A stretch of 64,000 bases of DNA, from NCBI GenBank assembly GCA_025359865.1, contig JANYDH010000028.1:1-64000 (forward strand). The letters are read 5' to 3'. Below, piece by piece: positions 41,650 to 48,497 of the stretch. The first letter of the stretch is position 1; each line of letters opens with the position of its first letter. The stretch comes from Actinomycetes bacterium. Lineage in GTDB: Bacteria > Actinomycetota > Acidimicrobiia > Acidimicrobiales > Ilumatobacteraceae. The notes beneath the pieces were generated by a model, which worked only from the letters and a program-made list of their open reading frames with translations, did not search any database and had not been told where the DNA came from. The position numbers and the translations under genes were made by a program.

Positions 41650-41677
41650 CGACCTACGACCTACGACCTACGACCTA
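41650..41677. repeat. 7-bp tandem repeat at the zur stop codon
   Basis: Four perfect copies of CGACCTA; the TAG stop of the minus-strand Fur/Zur gene (41675-41677) lies in the last copy. Confidence 0.8.
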
Positions 41678-42109
41678 CCCCTGTCCTGAGCAGCGACGGC
41701 ATCGACCAGCCAGCGCGAAGTGCTGCTCAGTCAAAACGAACCCGGTCTCGTGCTGCAGCTCGGATGACCATCGCTCGGTCATGGCGGAGCTGATCACTTC
41801 GATCTTCCCGCAGTCGTCGCACAGCACATGGGCGTGGCGATGCGTAGTGAGGTGATAGGCGGCCGGGCCGTGCCCGAGGTGGACGTGGGCGACCAATCCC
41901 ATCTGCTCGAGCGTTTCGAGGAAGCGATACACCGTGGTGACATGCACGTCGGGCAATGCGCTGTGTACTCGGCCGACGAGCTCATCGGCTGTCACGTGGT
42001 CCGACTCGTCGAACAGGACACGAAGGATCGCCTTGCGCTGATCGGTCACGCGACCACCGAGTTCGCGGATTGCTTGCAAGGTGCGGTCAATCGCGTCGGA
42101 GCCGATCAC
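41675..42109 (-). CDS. zur: Fur-family metalloregulator, probably Zur
   Basis: A 144-residue Fur-family protein. The winged-helix region is RVTDQRKAILRVLFDESDHV with TVYRFLETLEQMGLVAHV. The metal sites include HRHAHVLCDDCG and the C-terminal CRRC pair for a structural zinc. The longest frame begins at 42214, but GTG 42109 has TAGACT (42118-42123 on this strand) eight bases upstream and gives the usual length. Divergent from a zinc ABC importer, so Zur rather than Fur is the better call. No clear Zur box was recognised in the 95-base gap. Confidence 0.82.
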   Translation of the reverse strand: MIGSDAIDRTLQAIRELGGRVTDQRKAILRVLFDESDHVTADELVGRVHSALPDVHVTTVYRFLETLEQMGLVAHVHLGHGPAAYHLTTHRHAHVLCDDCGKIEVISSAMTERWSSELQHETGFVLTEQHFALAGRCRRCSGQG

Positions 42110-42204
42110 GGTCTCGGAGTCTACGACTATTCGTGATAACGGCTCGACGTGACTTCTGTCGGCCGGTCGCCTTGTTGCAACCAGCCTGCGATACGGTTCT
42201 TCTC

Positions 42205-43284
42205 GTGAGGCCACGAACCCACAGAGCCATCGGTACTGTCGTCGCGTTGACCATGACGGCGTGCGGAGGCAGCTCGGGGTCCGACTCCAGCCCCGTGACA
42301 GCAGGGAAGGCGACGAGCGATGCTCAGGCCGCGGCCATCGCGACCTGCACGGCCGGCGAGCCGATCCGCGATGGACGACGGATCCGGATCGGCTCGACCG
42401 TCGCGCCGATCACGTCCATCGTGGCCAACGTCGCCGGTGACCTTGCCGACATCACCGGCCTGGTCCCCGAGGGCACCAACTCCCACACCTTCGAACCGGC
42501 GCCGAGCGTTGCTGCGACCTTGGCGAAGACCGACGTGCTCTTCGCCAACGGGTTGCTGCTCGAGGAGCCGACCAAGGAACTCGCGACCGAGAACCTCCCG
42601 GCCAGCGCGGTGCTCTGTGAACTCGGTACCGCAACCCTTCCTGTCGCCGAGTACATCTACGATTTCTCGTTCCCGATCGAGGGCGGCAAGCCGAACCCGC
42701 ACCTGTGGACGAACCCCCCGATGGCGAAGCGGTACGCCGAGATCGTCAGGGACGTGCTCATACGGATGGACCCGGCCAACGCGGGCGCCTACCGCGACAA
42801 CGCAGCGGCGTACATCGGCAAAATCGATGCGCTCGACGCCGCAATGGTCGCCGCCACTGCGACGGTTCCGGCGACGCAACGCAAGTTACTCACCTACCAC
42901 GACGCGTACGCCTACTTCGCGAAGACGTACGGCTGGACCGTGATCGGCGCCATCCAACCATCCAACTTCGACGAACCGACTGCGAAGGAGGTGGCCCGCC
43001 TGATCGAGCAAGTGCGCGAGGCAGGGGTGCCCGCCATCTTCGGATCGGAAGTGTTCCCAAGTCCGGTGCTCGAGCAGATCGGTGCCGACGCCCGCGTCAA
43101 CTACGTCGATGTACTGCGTGATGACGACCTACCCGGCAAGCCGGGAGATCCTGGTCATTCGTTCCTCGGTCTGATGCAGTTCGACTACATCACGATGGTC
43201 GAAGCACTCGGCGGAAACGCTTCCACGCTCCAAGCAATCGACATCAGCGATGTCACCACCGACGTCGCCGTGTACCCACAGTGA
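42205..43284 (+). CDS. znuA: Zinc ABC transporter substrate-binding lipoprotein
   Basis: A 359-residue cluster A-I binding protein. A lipoprotein signal is present (TVVALTMTACGG, Cys as the anchor). Metal-binding residues lie in GTNSHTFEP, PHLWTNP and YHDAYAYFAKTY, the usual three-His pattern, and in FGSEVFPSPVLEQIG. GTG start with TACGGT at 42192-42197 and a 7-base gap. It overlaps the ATPase gene by four bases. Zinc is favoured over manganese because of the adjacent Zur-like regulator. Confidence 0.85.
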   Translation: MRPRTHRAIGTVVALTMTACGGSSGSDSSPVTAGKATSDAQAAAIATCTAGEPIRDGRRIRIGSTVAPITSIVANVAGDLADITGLVPEGTNSHTFEPAPSVAATLAKTDVLFANGLLLEEPTKELATENLPASAVLCELGTATLPVAEYIYDFSFPIEGGKPNPHLWTNPPMAKRYAEIVRDVLIRMDPANAGAYRDNAAAYIGKIDALDAAMVAATATVPATQRKLLTYHDAYAYFAKTYGWTVIGAIQPSNFDEPTAKEVARLIEQVREAGVPAIFGSEVFPSPVLEQIGADARVNYVDVLRDDDLPGKPGDPGHSFLGLMQFDYITMVEALGGNASTLQAIDISDVTTDVAVYPQ

Positions 43285-44078
43285 CGAACGTCGACGACCC
43301 CACCCGGTTGGACGAAGTGGCGAGCGCCGGTCGAATACTTGTCGAGGTCGACGGTGTATCGCACAGCTACGGCGGTCCCGTCGTGCTCGATCACATCCAC
43401 CTCTCGATCGAGGCCGGTTCATTCCTCGGCATTATCGGTCCGTCGGGTTCGGGCAAGACCACCCTGCTGCGCATCATCCTCGGCAACCTCTCCCCCACGC
43501 GCGGAGCCGTGCGCCGCGAGCCGGGCAAGCGGGTGGCCTATGTGCCCCAGGTAGAGACCGTGAACTGGAACTTCCCAATCACGGTGAGTGAGGTGGTGCT
43601 CATGTCGCGGGCATCGTCGATTCGCCATCCCTGGGCGACAGGGGCCGAACGTCGCGACGTGTCGGTCGTGCTGGAACAACTTGGGCTCGGCGGCCTAGAA
43701 GATCGCCACATTCGCGAGCTTTCCGGCGGCCAACAACAGCGGGTGTTTCTGGCGCGTGCACTCCACCGGCAGCCCGACCTTTTGGTGCTCGATGAGCCGA
43801 CCTCCGGTGTCGACGTGCGTACTCGTCACGAGGTCGTGCACCTCTTGACCGATCTGCATCGCGGTGGCATGGCTGTCGTGTTGACGACGCATGACATTAA
43901 CGGGCTGGCGACACATCTGCCGAGGATCGCGTGCGTGAACCGCGAACTCATCGCTCTCGGAAGCCCGCGTGACGTGCTGACTCCAAAGGTCCTCGAGCGC
44001 ACCTACGGCGCACCGATGGACGTACTCGAACACGGAGGCCTCCTCCTGGTAACCGACGTGCCGCTGGAATCGTCATGA
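43281..44078 (+). CDS. znuC: Zinc ABC transporter ATPase
   Basis: A 265-residue ATPase with Walker A GPSGSGKTTLLRI (near residue 53), signature LSGGQQQRVFLARAL, Walker B LLVLDEP and the H-loop VVLTTHDINGLA. GTG start overlaps znuA by four bases and the stop overlaps the permease gene by four. Powers the importer. Confidence 0.9.
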   Translation: MTNVDDPTRLDEVASAGRILVEVDGVSHSYGGPVVLDHIHLSIEAGSFLGIIGPSGSGKTTLLRIILGNLSPTRGAVRREPGKRVAYVPQVETVNWNFPITVSEVVLMSRASSIRHPWATGAERRDVSVVLEQLGLGGLEDRHIRELSGGQQQRVFLARALHRQPDLLVLDEPTSGVDVRTRHEVVHLLTDLHRGGMAVVLTTHDINGLATHLPRIACVNRELIALGSPRDVLTPKVLERTYGAPMDVLEHGGLLLVTDVPLESS

Positions 44079-44914
44079 ACCTGTTCGAGCCGTTCCAGTT
44101 TGCGTTCTTCCGCAACGGAATCATCGTCGCAGTGCTCGCAGGAGCGATTTGCGGACTGATCGGCGTGTACGTCGTGCTCCGCCAGATGAGCTACATCGGC
44201 CACGGGCTTTCCCACTCCATCTTCGGAGGGGCGGCGGCGAGCGCAGTGCTGTCGGTGAACTTCTACCTCGGAGCAGGGCTGTGGGGACTGCTGTCCGCGT
44301 TGATGATCGGTCGGGTGGCGCGCCGAGGCAAGATCGGCTCGGATGCGGCGATCGGGGTGATCACCACGGCCTCGTTCGCGATGGGCCTCGCGCTGTCGAA
44401 CCTGTTCGGCCAGGCGAAGCGGTCGATCGATGCCGTGTTGTTCGGCTCGATTCTCGGCGTCGGCGGTGCCGATGTGTTCGCAGTCGTCGGTGCGGGCGCG
44501 CTTTCGGTAGTGGTGATCTACTCGTGCTACCGCCAACTGCTGTTCGCAACGTTCGATCCCGAGGTCGCCGATGTATCCGGCGTGAACGTCGCCCGAATCG
44601 AAGCGCTGCTGATGTTGATGCTGGCGACCACGATCCTGTTCACCATGAAGGTGATGGGTGTGCTGTTGATCAGCGCAATGCTCGTCACTCCGGCTGCCAC
44701 GGCTCGAATGATGACCAACTCGTTCTCGCGAATGCTGACGATCGCTCCGATCATCGGTGCCCTGTGTGGATTCGTCGGCATGTTGCTCAGCTACCACATC
44801 GACGTTTCACCCGGGGCCACCATCATCCTCATCGCGTCGACCGTGTTCCTGGTGGTGTTCACGGTGACTGGAAGTCGGGGCCGACGCAACGTCGGTGGAC
44901 TCGGGCACCACTAG
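44075..44914 (+). CDS. znuB: Zinc ABC transporter permease
   Basis: A 279-residue integral membrane protein of the ABC-3 family with about seven to eight hydrophobic helices (for example IIVAVLAGAICGLIGVYVVL and ATTILFTMKVMGVLLISAML). The RQMSYIGHGLSHSIFGG and KVMGVLLISAMLVTPAATA segments are family signatures. Completes the zinc importer operon. Confidence 0.9.
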   Translation: MNLFEPFQFAFFRNGIIVAVLAGAICGLIGVYVVLRQMSYIGHGLSHSIFGGAAASAVLSVNFYLGAGLWGLLSALMIGRVARRGKIGSDAAIGVITTASFAMGLALSNLFGQAKRSIDAVLFGSILGVGGADVFAVVGAGALSVVVIYSCYRQLLFATFDPEVADVSGVNVARIEALLMLMLATTILFTMKVMGVLLISAMLVTPAATARMMTNSFSRMLTIAPIIGALCGFVGMLLSYHIDVSPGATIILIASTVFLVVFTVTGSRGRRNVGGLGHH

Positions 44915-45352: not shown

Positions 45353-46666
45353 TCAGCCGCTCGGGATGAGATCCCACACCTGACCGTTCGGGGTGTCGCG
45401 CACCTCGACCCCCGCAGCGGCGAGACCATCGCGGATCGTGTCGGACAGGTCGTACCGCTTCGCGGCGCGAACCTCGGTGCGCGCGTTCAACGCCACGTCG
45501 ATCACGGGGCCGAGGATCGAGCGCGGATCGGTGACGCCTACGACGGCAGCTTCGCCGAGGCGGACAATCATCGACCGCAGCAGGGCCCGGGCACGGGTCG
45601 TGGCATCGCTTTGCAACGTGTCGGTCGACCACCCGACGATCGCCTCGTCGAGGTCGAGCACTGCGGACACAGCCGCCGCGGCGTCGCGACGCAACAGCGC
45701 ATCGTCGAAGGCGGCGCCGAGCCGCTCGGCATCGCCAGCCAAGGATGGTGCAGACTCAGCTCGATCGACCGCCGAGATAGGCTGCGGCATGCCGGACACT
45801 GCGGCATCGGCCGTCGACGAGCCGAGCGACACCGGTACCGCCGACGAGGCCGAGGCCGAACTCGTGTCGGGGCCGGAGCGGAGCACATCGATCGGCACCG
45901 TCTCTCCCGCTGGGATCTCCACCGACTGCCCGTTGCGGCGCACGGTGAGCACTCCGAGACCGACAACCGACGCAGTGTCAGCATCGAGATCGAGGAGTAC
46001 CCCGGTGTGCTCGTCGAGCCCCAGGACGAACGCGCCATCGGGCAACAGCCGTTCCATCATTGCCAGACGGCGCTCCCCGAGGTAGCAGAACCGGGTGTCA
46101 TGATGGCCGCCTTCGGCGTTGTTGTAGTGCGGGATCACCGCCACCGGCAACCCGAACGGCGACAGCAGGTCGAGCCCGTCGAGCCAGTACGGGTCGGCAC
46201 CCGACTTGTACACCTCGTACACCGGTACGGTCGCAAGCCCCAGCGTGAGTGCAGCAGCGCTCGAAAACGTGACCGCTCCCTCGGTTCGAAGCTTCTCGGC
46301 GAGGAGATCGGGGATCGGGGTACCCGCCCACTGCCGGAGCGCGTAGGTGGGGCTCCCCGGACCCGCGAACACAAACCGTGCCTGGCGAACACGAGCGAAT
46401 GCCGCCTCGCGTTCGAGCGTCGTCGCAGTCTCGAGGCGTTGAAGACCGGCGACGCCGATGGTTCGGGTGAGACTGGTCTGGAAGTAGGCGACCGTCTTGG
46501 CCGAGAGCTCGTCCGCGTTCTCTTGGAACCCGAACGGCGTGTCAAGGAATACGGCCAGCACATCGTCAGGTGCGTTCGCTTCGAGACGTTCGAACACCAT
46601 GCGATGCGGCTTGACCATCGTCGGTGCCGTCTCACCACTTCCCATGATCGTCAGTAGGCGAGTCAT
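45353..46666 (-). CDS. Peptidase E-like domain fused to a CysRS-type C-terminal domain
   Basis: A 437-residue protein. Residues about 1-225 resemble peptidase E/cyanophycinase-like class I glutamine-amidotransferase folds (MTRLLTIMGSGETAPTM, FVFAGPGSPTYALRQW and a serine in FSSAAALTLG). The C-terminal about 120 residues (ALLRRDAAAAVSAVLDLDEA, then RAAKRYDLSDTIRDGL and GVEVRDTPNGQVWDL) match the last domain of cysteinyl-tRNA synthetase, which lies outside the catalytic core. A low-complexity Ser/Ala linker joins them. Start ATG 46666 overlaps the hydrolase stop. Role unknown; RNA binding or CysRS-related interaction is an inference. Confidence 0.8.
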   Translation of the reverse strand: MTRLLTIMGSGETAPTMVKPHRMVFERLEANAPDDVLAVFLDTPFGFQENADELSAKTVAYFQTSLTRTIGVAGLQRLETATTLEREAAFARVRQARFVFAGPGSPTYALRQWAGTPIPDLLAEKLRTEGAVTFSSAAALTLGLATVPVYEVYKSGADPYWLDGLDLLSPFGLPVAVIPHYNNAEGGHHDTRFCYLGERRLAMMERLLPDGAFVLGLDEHTGVLLDLDADTASVVGLGVLTVRRNGQSVEIPAGETVPIDVLRSGPDTSSASASSAVPVSLGSSTADAAVSGMPQPISAVDRAESAPSLAGDAERLGAAFDDALLRRDAAAAVSAVLDLDEAIVGWSTDTLQSDATTRARALLRSMIVRLGEAAVVGVTDPRSILGPVIDVALNARTEVRAAKRYDLSDTIRDGLAAAGVEVRDTPNGQVWDLIPSG

Positions 46667-47523
46667 CGTGGACTTCCTTCATGTGAGAGGTCGAGCAGCA
46701 CCTTGGCCAACTCGACCGGATGCTGGGCATGGATGTCATGGTCGGCAGGCGAAAACCACCTCACGCGACCATGCTGCAACCGGGCGAGCGCGGCGTCGAC
46801 AGCGGCACTCTTGTCGTGCGTCCAAGCCACATCACCGGTGTCTGCAGGGATGAGCAGGGTCGGCACGGCGAGTTGCGGGTACTGCACCGACGGGCGGTGG
46901 GCGTACAGCGCTTCGAGGATCATCATGTGCCGCTCAAACGTGAGCCACGGCGCGATCGTGCCATCGGACCGGACCTCGAAGTTAGCCATCGAGCCGACGA
47001 TGCCGGATTCAGGCCAGTTCGAATGACCATCGCGCATCCACTGCTCCATCTTGGAGGCCGGCGTTCCGATCAAGCGTGGTGGAGCGAGCGCCGTACGGCA
47101 TTCGTCCCAGGTGGAGAATCGATCTGCAAGTTCGATGAACCCGCCGTCGACGGCCGCGATCGCTCCGACAAGATGTGGGTAGGTGGCACCGAGCTCGATG
47201 ACGACGTTGCCGCCCCACGACTGGCCGACGACGACGGGCTGAACCCATCCGAGCGACGCGATGAGCGCCACAAGATCAGCGACGATCGTGGCGAAGTCGT
47301 AGCCCTCATCGGGTTTGCTCGATCGGCCGTGTCCACGCTGATCGACCGCTACCACGGGATGACCGGCGGCGGCTATCACCTCGGCCACGCCGTCCCACAT
47401 CCGCGCGTTCGACGCGAGGCCGTGCACGAGTAGGAACGGGACCTTGCCACTGTTGAGATTGCGGGCGAGGATCCGCACGTGCACGCCAGGTGCGACCTCG
47501 ACCATCCGCTCCGTCGATGTCAC
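46663..47523 (-). CDS. Alpha/beta hydrolase
   Basis: A 286-residue alpha/beta hydrolase. Oxyanion segment LLVHGLASNARMWD, VDQRGHGRSSKP, nucleophile elbow VGQSWGGN (Ser) and a C-terminal PADHDIHAQHP with the catalytic His. The acid is probably the Asp in PADTGDVAW. The GTG at 47523 overlaps the oxidoreductase stop as GTGA. Esterase, lactonase or dehalogenase activity is possible. Confidence 0.85.
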   Translation of the reverse strand: MTSTERMVEVAPGVHVRILARNLNSGKVPFLLVHGLASNARMWDGVAEVIAAAGHPVVAVDQRGHGRSSKPDEGYDFATIVADLVALIASLGWVQPVVVGQSWGGNVVIELGATYPHLVGAIAAVDGGFIELADRFSTWDECRTALAPPRLIGTPASKMEQWMRDGHSNWPESGIVGSMANFEVRSDGTIAPWLTFERHMMILEALYAHRPSVQYPQLAVPTLLIPADTGDVAWTHDKSAAVDAALARLQHGRVRWFSPADHDIHAQHPVELAKVLLDLSHEGSPR

Positions 47524-48497
47524 GAAATTCGCCCAGATACTGTGGCGGCCGCGCTGATCCGGTCGAGCAACTCGGCCATGATGATTGTCTCCGCCACCGG
47601 CCGAGGCCACGCGGAACGCCCGCAAACTGCCGCCGCGAATGCTTCGATCATCGCAAGGTAACAGTCGCCGCCGACGGTCGATCGGCGCTCAACTTTACCA
47701 TCGGCCCGCGTGATGGTGAACGACGTGTCGTCTCCGCCCGGCGTGAACGGACGATCGGCGATGAGCGTCGCGTTGGTGCCGCAGACGAGCAACGATTGAC
47801 GCTCCGCAAGCTCGATCGAGGTGACCACCGACGCCGTCGCACCGGTCGGCCAGACGAGCCAGGCGGCGGTAGTGGCGTCGACAGTGGCGTCGACGGTGCC
47901 GCCATGAGTGGCGTCGACGGTGCCGGCATGAGTGGCGTGCGCCACGACCGACGAAGGTGGGCCACCCATCACCGTCAGCACCGGCGCGAGGCAGTAGATG
48001 CCGACATCGAGGAGTGCACCTCCACCGCGCGCTGCCAACCAACGGTAATTGTCGACCTCGGCGAGGCAAAACGTGAAGGCGGCGTCGATGTGCCGGATCT
48101 CACCGAGTTCGCCGGAACGAAGGCATGCATCGATCGCTGCGCTCCGAGGATGGAACGGAGTCATGTACGCCTCGACCAGCAAGACCCCTGCGGCGTCGCA
48201 CGCCTCGGCCATCACCCGAGCATCGACCTGTGAAACTCCCATCGGCTTCTCGCACAACACGTGTTTGCCGGCTGCGGAGGCAGCCAGCACCCACTCGCGA
48301 TGCATATCGTTCGGAAGGGCGATGTACACGGCATCGACCGTGGGGTCGGCGAGCACGTCGGCATAACCAACCGAACCGCCGCGTGAACCGATGCTTCCCA
48401 GTGTGGCACCGGTGCTGTGCCGGATCGCAGGGATCACTGCTTGATTGGCGATCCAGGATCTGCCACCGAGCACACCGATCGTGACCCGTCGGTTCAT
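47520..48497 (-). CDS. Gfo/Idh/MocA-family oxidoreductase
   Basis: A 325-residue NAD(P)-dependent oxidoreductase: VTIGVLGGRSWIANQAV at the N-terminus, AVYIALPNDMHREW, the EKPMGVS lysine motif and the C-terminal alpha/beta domain. The ATG at 48497 lies in an 8-bp tandem repeat that also offers two earlier ATGs, each of which runs into a stop after three codons (Met-Asn-Arg). A 24-bp in-frame repeat (47884-47931) encodes Thr-Val-Asp-Ala-Thr-His-Gly-Gly-like units in the C-terminal half. Confidence 0.87.
   Translation of the reverse strand: MNRRVTIGVLGGRSWIANQAVIPAIRHSTGATLGSIGSRGGSVGYADVLADPTVDAVYIALPNDMHREWVLAASAAGKHVLCEKPMGVSQVDARVMAEACDAAGVLLVEAYMTPFHPRSAAIDACLRSGELGEIRHIDAAFTFCLAEVDNYRWLAARGGGALLDVGIYCLAPVLTVMGGPPSSVVAHATHAGTVDATHGGTVDATVDATTAAWLVWPTGATASVVTSIELAERQSLLVCGTNATLIADRPFTPGGDDTSFTITRADGKVERRSTVGGDCYLAMIEAFAAAVCGRSAWPRPVAETIIMAELLDRISAAATVSGRIS
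47872..47940. repeat. 24-bp in-frame tandem repeat
   Basis: Two copies of a 24-bp unit (GTGGCGTCGACGGTGCCG and six more bases) with partial copies on both sides. The unit adds eight residues (Thr-Val-Asp-Ala-Thr-His-Gly/Ala-Gly) to the oxidoreductase and keeps the frame. Confidence 0.75.

Follow-up and report, generated by a model that had tools for sequence, protein, structure and literature searches.

The gene at 45353..46666 (minus strand) of the window, by which we mean the whole stretch of 64,000 nucleotides analysed here (from a bacterium of the family Ilumatobacteraceae), encodes a protein of 437 amino acids in which an S51-type hydrolase domain is fused to the anticodon-binding region of cysteinyl-tRNA synthetase (CysRS). 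We consider this two-domain architecture firm. Each module is already known; what is new is their combination and the tRNA-Cys-directed hydrolase that it implies. As to function, we tentatively take the protein for a serine hydrolase directed at tRNA-Cys, with trans-editing deacylation as its most likely role; the reaction is inferred without any biochemistry, and our confidence in it stays somewhat below even. The broader proposal, i.e., an undescribed class of tRNA-Cys quality control in which a hydrolase of the peptidase E fold with a captured CysRS anticodon reader deacylates mischarged or damaged aminoacyl-tRNA-Cys, is possible rather than probable. If it is true, proofreading of tRNA-Cys is needed by a large group of Actinomycetota, among them those with genomes of about 1 Mb; and a widespread conserved hydrolase with an intact CysRS anticodon reader would either challenge the view that no editing is needed or point to a use of tRNA-Cys not recognized so far. 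None of the top-ranked matches in the open-access literature, judged by title and the start of the abstract, is about such a fusion.

The coding sequence is an uninterrupted reading frame with an ATG start, is supported by relatives and occurs as a single copy in its own genome; the product is about 45 kDa. Taken alone, the window protein gives weak signals. Its sole Pfam match is CysS_C (PF23493) at residues 389-431, with 23.2 bits (E 7.6e-5), just above the cut-off of 23 bits; PF03575 gives no match at E 1; and among PDB sequences only faint similarity is found to CysRS 8qhp (E 0.09) and to the S51-type structure 6nqc (E 0.69). The profile of the family alignment (A1, 45 sequences) matches both halves: CysRS 8qhp with E 4.2e-10 (profile positions 296-419), CysRS 1li5/1u0b with E 1.8e-7 (301-419) and 6nqc with E 3.9e-7 (5-255). 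At E 0.01, Pfam recognizes CysS_C in 39 of the 45 aligned members and Peptidase_S51 in 11 (best 3.4e-6). The match also holds in reverse, as a true CysRS identified by TIGR00435 (G102:C109) aligns with positions 288-421 of the family profile (E 4.7e-13), and other genomes give similar matches, up to 2.0e-15, in frames of CysRS length that were not individually verified. The AlphaFold2 model built on the family alignment has a mean pLDDT of 85.5. The original prediction had named a profile search against CysRS and a structure prediction as checks; both came out positive, the former also by hhalign (E 1.6e-8), and in the latter both halves were matched to S51 and CysRS structures, respectively.

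Residues 1-264 (45875..46666, minus strand) constitute a peptidase E/cyanophycinase-like (S51) domain according to the AlphaFold2 model, Foldseek, VIA-align, the family profile and, for 11 of 45 members, Pfam, so the peptidase E-type character first proposed for the N-terminal half is borne out. Foldseek finds 6nqc (E 2.5e-13) and 1fy2 (E 5.0e-10) with the model of this domain, and VIA-align gives Z scores of 25.7 and 20.5 for the same structures; over the S51 structures (6nqc, peptidase E, cyanophycinase) Z ranges from 16.6 to 25.7 and the alignment covers model residues 1-265. The short-form members in genomes G113, G130 and G142 exceed the Pfam S51 cut-off. Three positions are the same in all 143 distinct members and align with motifs of 6nqc: Ser136, the predicted nucleophile (46259..46261, minus strand; Ser of CSAG), His180, the predicted general base (46127..46129, minus strand; IPHYNN against IPHFN), and Glu219, the predicted third triad residue (46010..46012, minus strand; IDE). 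The neighbouring Asp218, likewise 143/143, is an alternative for the third place. At the motif level these residues correspond to Ser120, His157 and Glu192, which form the triad of peptidase E (PepE) according to a source available to us in part, here and below (PMC9239234). We conclude that the domain is an S51-type serine hydrolase with the triad S136-H180-E219, which is established at the level of motif and fold; the activity is inferred.

The fold and the order of the Ser/His/Glu motifs are shared with the S51 family (peptidase E, cyanophycinase, MccG and 6nqc, a peptidase of the actinobacterial lineage acI-B1), and the GSGE-type N-terminal motif is common to the fusion and 6nqc. In contrast to the family, the fusion has an invariant set of its own (F47-Q48, Y150-E151 followed by K154, N183, D190-T191, R200 and H220) and additionally bears an anticodon-binding module; it also has SAAA where 6nqc has SAG. 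The invariant residues located in the pocket, viz. Y150, E151, K154, N183, D190, T191, R200 and H220, are absent from 6nqc, which suggests a specific, perhaps unexpected, substrate.

The two halves are joined by a disordered linker rich in Ala and Ser (residues 265-308, 45743..45874, minus strand), as had been noticed from the sequence: 20 of the 42 residues at 265-306 are Ala or Ser, and pLDDT falls below 50 at 271-295 and 297-303. It is followed by a helical bundle (residues 309-384, 45515..45742, minus strand), which VIA-align and hhalign equate with the CysRS region ahead of CysS_C, and by the CysS_C anticodon-binding domain itself (residues 385-434, 45365..45514, minus strand), supported by PF23493, by its presence in 39/45 members and by hhalign. 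The alignment of the C-terminal region matches residues 338-459 of E. coli CysRS in hhalign with a probability of 95.5. With VIA-align, model residues 310-434 are superposed on residues 332-461 of chain 1u0b_B (Z 8.3, 117 aligned residues), 1u0b being E. coli CysRS in complex with tRNA-Cys; the rmsd of 15.8 we read as two subdomains turned relative to each other. Folded alone, the region reaches a pLDDT of 92.2, and for this isolated model Foldseek places CysRS 1u0b at the top with a modest E of 1.1e-3, the runner-up having 0.49. VIA-align of the isolated model is dominated by unrelated helical bundles, with CysRS absent among the matches listed. In a search of the bacterium's own genome with Pfam DALR_2, the true CysRS was matched and the fusion protein was not; the assignment of the bundle thus rests on hhalign and structure alone. 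Residues 309-434 match the whole anticodon-binding region of CysRS. The assignment of the last 50 or so residues to CysRS was therefore correct in kind and too short in extent, as the match covers about 125 residues.

Compared with CysRS, the fusion shares the helical bundle, CysS_C (PF23493; E. coli 1u0b) and the residues that read G34, whereas the catalytic domain of the synthetase is missing: NCBIfam matches just the extreme C-end of the CysRS models, and no class I catalytic domain is found, the cysS model being matched at positions 421-463 only (15.4 bits against a cut-off of 340).

The G34-reading residues are the main ground for connecting the protein with tRNA-Cys. In the complex of E. 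coli CysRS, G34 receives hydrogen bonds from Arg427 and Asp436, is stacked on Trp432 and is reached by a water network involving Asp436 and Arg423, as far as the available part of the source describes it (PMC12684709). An ungapped alignment to the E. coli enzyme equates R396, R400, Y405, D409, R412, D424 and W431 of the fusion (45374..45481, minus strand) with R423, R427, W432, D436, R439, D451 and W458, respectively. Conservation was assessed on open reading frames that contain the N-terminal domain, the C-terminal one not being required (178 frames, 143 distinct; the source loci were mostly fetched for high scores). R396, R400, D409, R412, D424 and W431 are present in 142 of 142 distinct members, and position 405 is aromatic (F, Y or W) in the same 142; the missing row, L050, is a truncated locus with an incomplete C-terminus. 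Among 50 true CysRSs (49 from the window's class and that of E. coli), R423 is found in 47, R427 in 49, an aromatic residue at 432 in 50, D436 in 50, R439 in 50, D451 in 47 and W458 in 35. On this alignment evidence, the contact residues are conserved in the fusion no less strictly than in real CysRSs.

Over 3000 random pairs, identity averages 56% in the N-terminal domain, 14% in the linker, 42% in the bundle and 48% in CysS_C, and the G34 contacts stand out because the rest of the C-terminal region is this variable. By a simple estimate, the chance that the three polar G34 contacts all fall within the six near-invariant columns of a 50-residue segment is 0.001. The conservation shared with CysRS may partly reflect structural constraint. 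The conserved residues point to binding of tRNA-Cys rather than of a CysRS-like protein partner, which the original prediction had also allowed for; the role in cysteine or tRNA metabolism that it tentatively suggested agrees with these findings, although the function is untested. The C-terminal module is thus likely, by inference from its invariant contact residues, to dock on tRNA-Cys through G34. In the bacterium's own CysRS (L001:376-1830), several anticodon-side residues retained by the fusion are lost (R423 to L, D451 to T and W458 to L), and the CysRSs of L136 and L137 from the same family have L and T at 423 and 451 and V at 458.

Ten of the 143 members are short forms of 354-391 residues, with 67-88 residues between G254 and R396 as against 95-171 in the others, the truncated row L050 being left aside; four of them come from tiny genomes (family f50, 0.6-1.1 Mb), which we liken to Ca. 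Actinomarinales by inference from size and class. In all ten the bundle region is reduced or missing and every CysS_C contact residue is kept, and we therefore regard the CysS_C core as what selection keeps. In 17 of the 143 members the alignment has a gap at the bundle residue W346.

We presume the following course of events. A CysRS anticodon module devoid of the synthetase catalytic domain would dock on tRNA-Cys by reading G34; the flexible linker would allow the hydrolase to get to the 3' end of this tRNA, where the amino acid is attached; and the S51 domain would hydrolyse the ester bond of a wrong or altered amino acid on tRNA-Cys, i.e., perform trans-editing. The last two steps are inferred. 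PepE acts on the bond that follows an N-terminal residue whose amino group is free, and MccG, the S51 enzyme for processed microcin C (McC), cleaves an aminoacyl-nucleotide (PMC9239234); aminoacyl-A76 is therefore a short step away as a substrate. MccG resembles the fusion in being an S51 serine hydrolase that acts on such a compound; it differs in that its substrate is a free antibiotic and the third triad residue is Asp, and the part of the source available mentions no anticodon-binding domain (PMC9239234). Deacylation was chosen as the reaction because of this PepE and MccG chemistry together with a precedent for the layout, ThrRS-ed. The close linkage to a second hydrolase, described below, is also counted in favour of trans-editing.

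The free-standing ThrRS-ed of archaea acts on tRNA-Thr. Similarly to the fusion, it joins a hydrolytic domain to the anticodon-binding domain of a synthetase (PMC11295145), and it is a structural homologue of the D-aminoacyl-tRNA deacylases, DTDs (PMC7373986), as far as the parts of the two sources at hand go. The catalytic fold is where they part: DTD-like in ThrRS-ed and S51 in the fusion, whose anticodon module comes from CysRS. The fusion shows no DTD fold, considering that the Pfam scan is without PF02580 and the N-terminal domain matches S51 structures over residues 1-265. DTD is matched in 214 of 296 genomes of the class, including the window's genome and many carriers of the fusion, and is absent in other carriers (e.g., G005, G006 and G009). 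The idea that the fusion substitutes for this general deacylase is unsupported, since no pattern of co-occurrence is apparent by eye; no statistics were applied.

Several points count against trans-editing. The four positions that we take to be the zinc ligands of CysRS (E. coli C28, C209, H234 and E238) are intact in all 49 CysRSs aligned from the class, so that a lost zinc site, which would explain a need for editing, is not seen. CysRS is held to need no editing, its zinc rejecting serine, according to the accessible part of a review (PMC7373986). Within what the partial source states, PepE is unable to cleave processed McC, and some S51 proteins are without peptidase activity (PMC9239234). 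It is also possible that the substrate is something other than an aminoacyl ester, because the invariant pocket residues are not seen in 6nqc. Finally, the gene is patchy, being found in 49 of 100 relatives and in none of four other genomes of the same genus.

The fusion cannot be regarded as a replacement of CysRS in the genomes sampled: a normal CysRS is detected by TIGR00435 above the cut-off in 59 of 60 genomes of the class, including the window's own (at L001), and the fusion is therefore an additional gene. In the genome G139, which is 88% complete and carries the fusion, CysRS is not found by TIGR00435; the best match (6.1e-8, in a frame of 810 residues) is probably another synthetase. 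A second full-length CysRS-like gene appears to be present beside the usual one in G104:C87:131364-132758 and G109:C2:108237-109676.

Immediately upstream of the fusion lies an alpha/beta hydrolase gene (46663..47625, minus strand; Pfam Abhydrolase), the stop of which shares 4 nt (ATGA) with the start of the fusion. At least 900 nt of upstream sequence are available for 86 of 94 non-redundant fusions; an alpha/beta hydrolase is found on the same strand within 250 nt in 44 of these loci and DUF2017 within 250 nt in 12, both are present somewhere in the locus in 10, and neither is adjacent in 30. Of 114 hydrolase-fusion entries, which include redundant loci, 97 have the stop codon of the hydrolase in the range from 9 nt ahead of the estimated start of the fusion to 16 nt within it. 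No alpha/beta hydrolase fused into the same frame was found by phmmer. Further upstream, some lineages have ctaA, clpS and DUF2017. The order ctaA, clpS, DUF2017, then in some cases the alpha/beta hydrolase, and the fusion is observed in L088:3802-5502, L101:6112-7993 and L090:2-1525, and this order is possibly the older arrangement.

The neighbourhood bears on a reading in which tRNA is merely an anchor or a signal: CysS_C would bring an S51 peptidase to tRNA-Cys or the translation apparatus, or regulate it, and the substrate would be a peptide or peptidyl-tRNA. The fold is indeed nearest to peptidases, and clpS with DUF2017 upstream on the same strand makes a proteolysis neighbourhood in some lineages; however, DUF2017 is adjacent in just those 12 of 86 loci, and the invariant pocket residues differ from those of 6nqc. 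We find this reading unlikely. Unlikely as well is the suggestion that CysS_C no longer binds tRNA and has a structural role, or one in dimerisation, in an otherwise ordinary hydrolase. There are no data on tRNA binding to contradict it, and the two parts of the C-terminal region are variable overall, yet in spite of this background the counterparts of the E. coli G34 contacts belong to the invariant positions.

A further alternative to deacylation is acyl transfer, in which Ser136 would take over the cysteine, or a different acyl group, of Cys-tRNA-Cys and hand it on to an acceptor that is an amine or a thiol; tRNA-Cys would then be a donor for a small molecule or protein, and the alpha/beta hydrolase would belong to the same pathway. 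Serine acyl-enzyme chemistry and the close linkage of the two hydrolase genes are compatible with it. No acceptor or pathway gene has been identified, however, and the S51 enzymes known to us are all hydrolases, which makes such a transfer quite improbable in our opinion.

As regards distribution, 55 of the 100 relatives searched give some match and 49 carry the fusion by our own count, while six match in part only (G062, G077, G082, G085, G093 and G094). A scan of genome contigs yielded 183 encoding stretches, of which 80 were kept. In the sample of the window's class, the fusion is found in 108 of 296 genomes (a hand count of best E below 1e-40): 18 of 23 in the window's family, 34 in the rest of the order, 33 of 42 in family f50 and 23 in other families. 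The phylum sample (296 genomes) adds 11 genomes of other classes out of about 269 (G377, G408, G434, G463, G503, G512, G537, G551, G561, G580 and G590). In the plasmid collection, copies with 41-47% identity occur in Streptomycetaceae NBC_01309, Streptomyces CA-256286, Streptomyces NBC_01237 and Nonomuraea gerenzanensis; the copy of CA-256286 has the accession WP_207565538.1, the motif is kept in all four, two of them are annotated as 'hypothetical protein', and two are missing from an incomplete gene table.

These plasmid copies in Streptomycetaceae could be cited for MccG-like detoxification, i.e., for an N-terminal domain that destroys a toxic mimic of cysteinyl-adenylate (a peptidyl-nucleotide antibiotic) while the CysRS-derived domain targets tRNA-Cys or CysRS; so could MccG itself, an S51 enzyme that cleaves processed McC according to the part of the source available (PMC9239234). 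A small molecule can nonetheless be found without an anticodon reader, and retention of the gene in 33 of the 42 genomes of 0.6-1.1 Mb is more housekeeping-like than resistance-like; we regard this possibility as very doubtful. A gene-calling artefact, i.e., two genes fused by mis-assembly or a hidden frameshift, which the original prediction had named as a ground for its refutation, has no evidence in its support and is ruled out for practical purposes, because the fusion is conserved, with both domains in one frame in 142 distinct sequences and in the Streptomyces and Nonomuraea records; chance is excluded on the same ground.

Some sequences depart from the common pattern. The copy in G255 extends over three reading frames, with Trp in place of R396, and a TGA stands within the matched frame of the relative L009 / G025:C5:151905-153161. 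The one single-domain relative that was read (L246, 258 residues) is distant (E 3.6e-16), and the two fragments with the N-terminal domain only that were checked (L243 and L247) run into contig ends. A 'cyanophycinase' has been reported in Ca. Actinomarinales (PMC7771536, available in part); we do not claim that it is the fusion gene, as shorter S51 genes are present as well in the tiny genomes that were searched.

At 41675-44914 of the window, convergent to the fusion or beyond it, there are a FUR-family regulator, ZnuA and an ABC ATPase (by Pfam) with a permease frame, and in relatives a permease cluster (35 loci) and a ZnuA-like cluster (32 loci) lie downstream of the fusion on the opposite strand. 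CysRS is a zinc enzyme, and for this reason the zinc-uptake neighbours deserve attention; a functional link of zinc uptake to the fusion was considered and is not claimed. ARAGORN finds no special tRNA beside the fusion gene in the window. A Fur-like gene and a two-gene ABC-type transporter are located near the fusion in the tiny-genome members L170:7570-9523 and L173:7695-9672 (translations read by eye), and in two Streptomycetaceae plasmids (L249:12801-15254 and L251:3747-6766) a TPR protein and a 'nickel transporter' gene are found near it.
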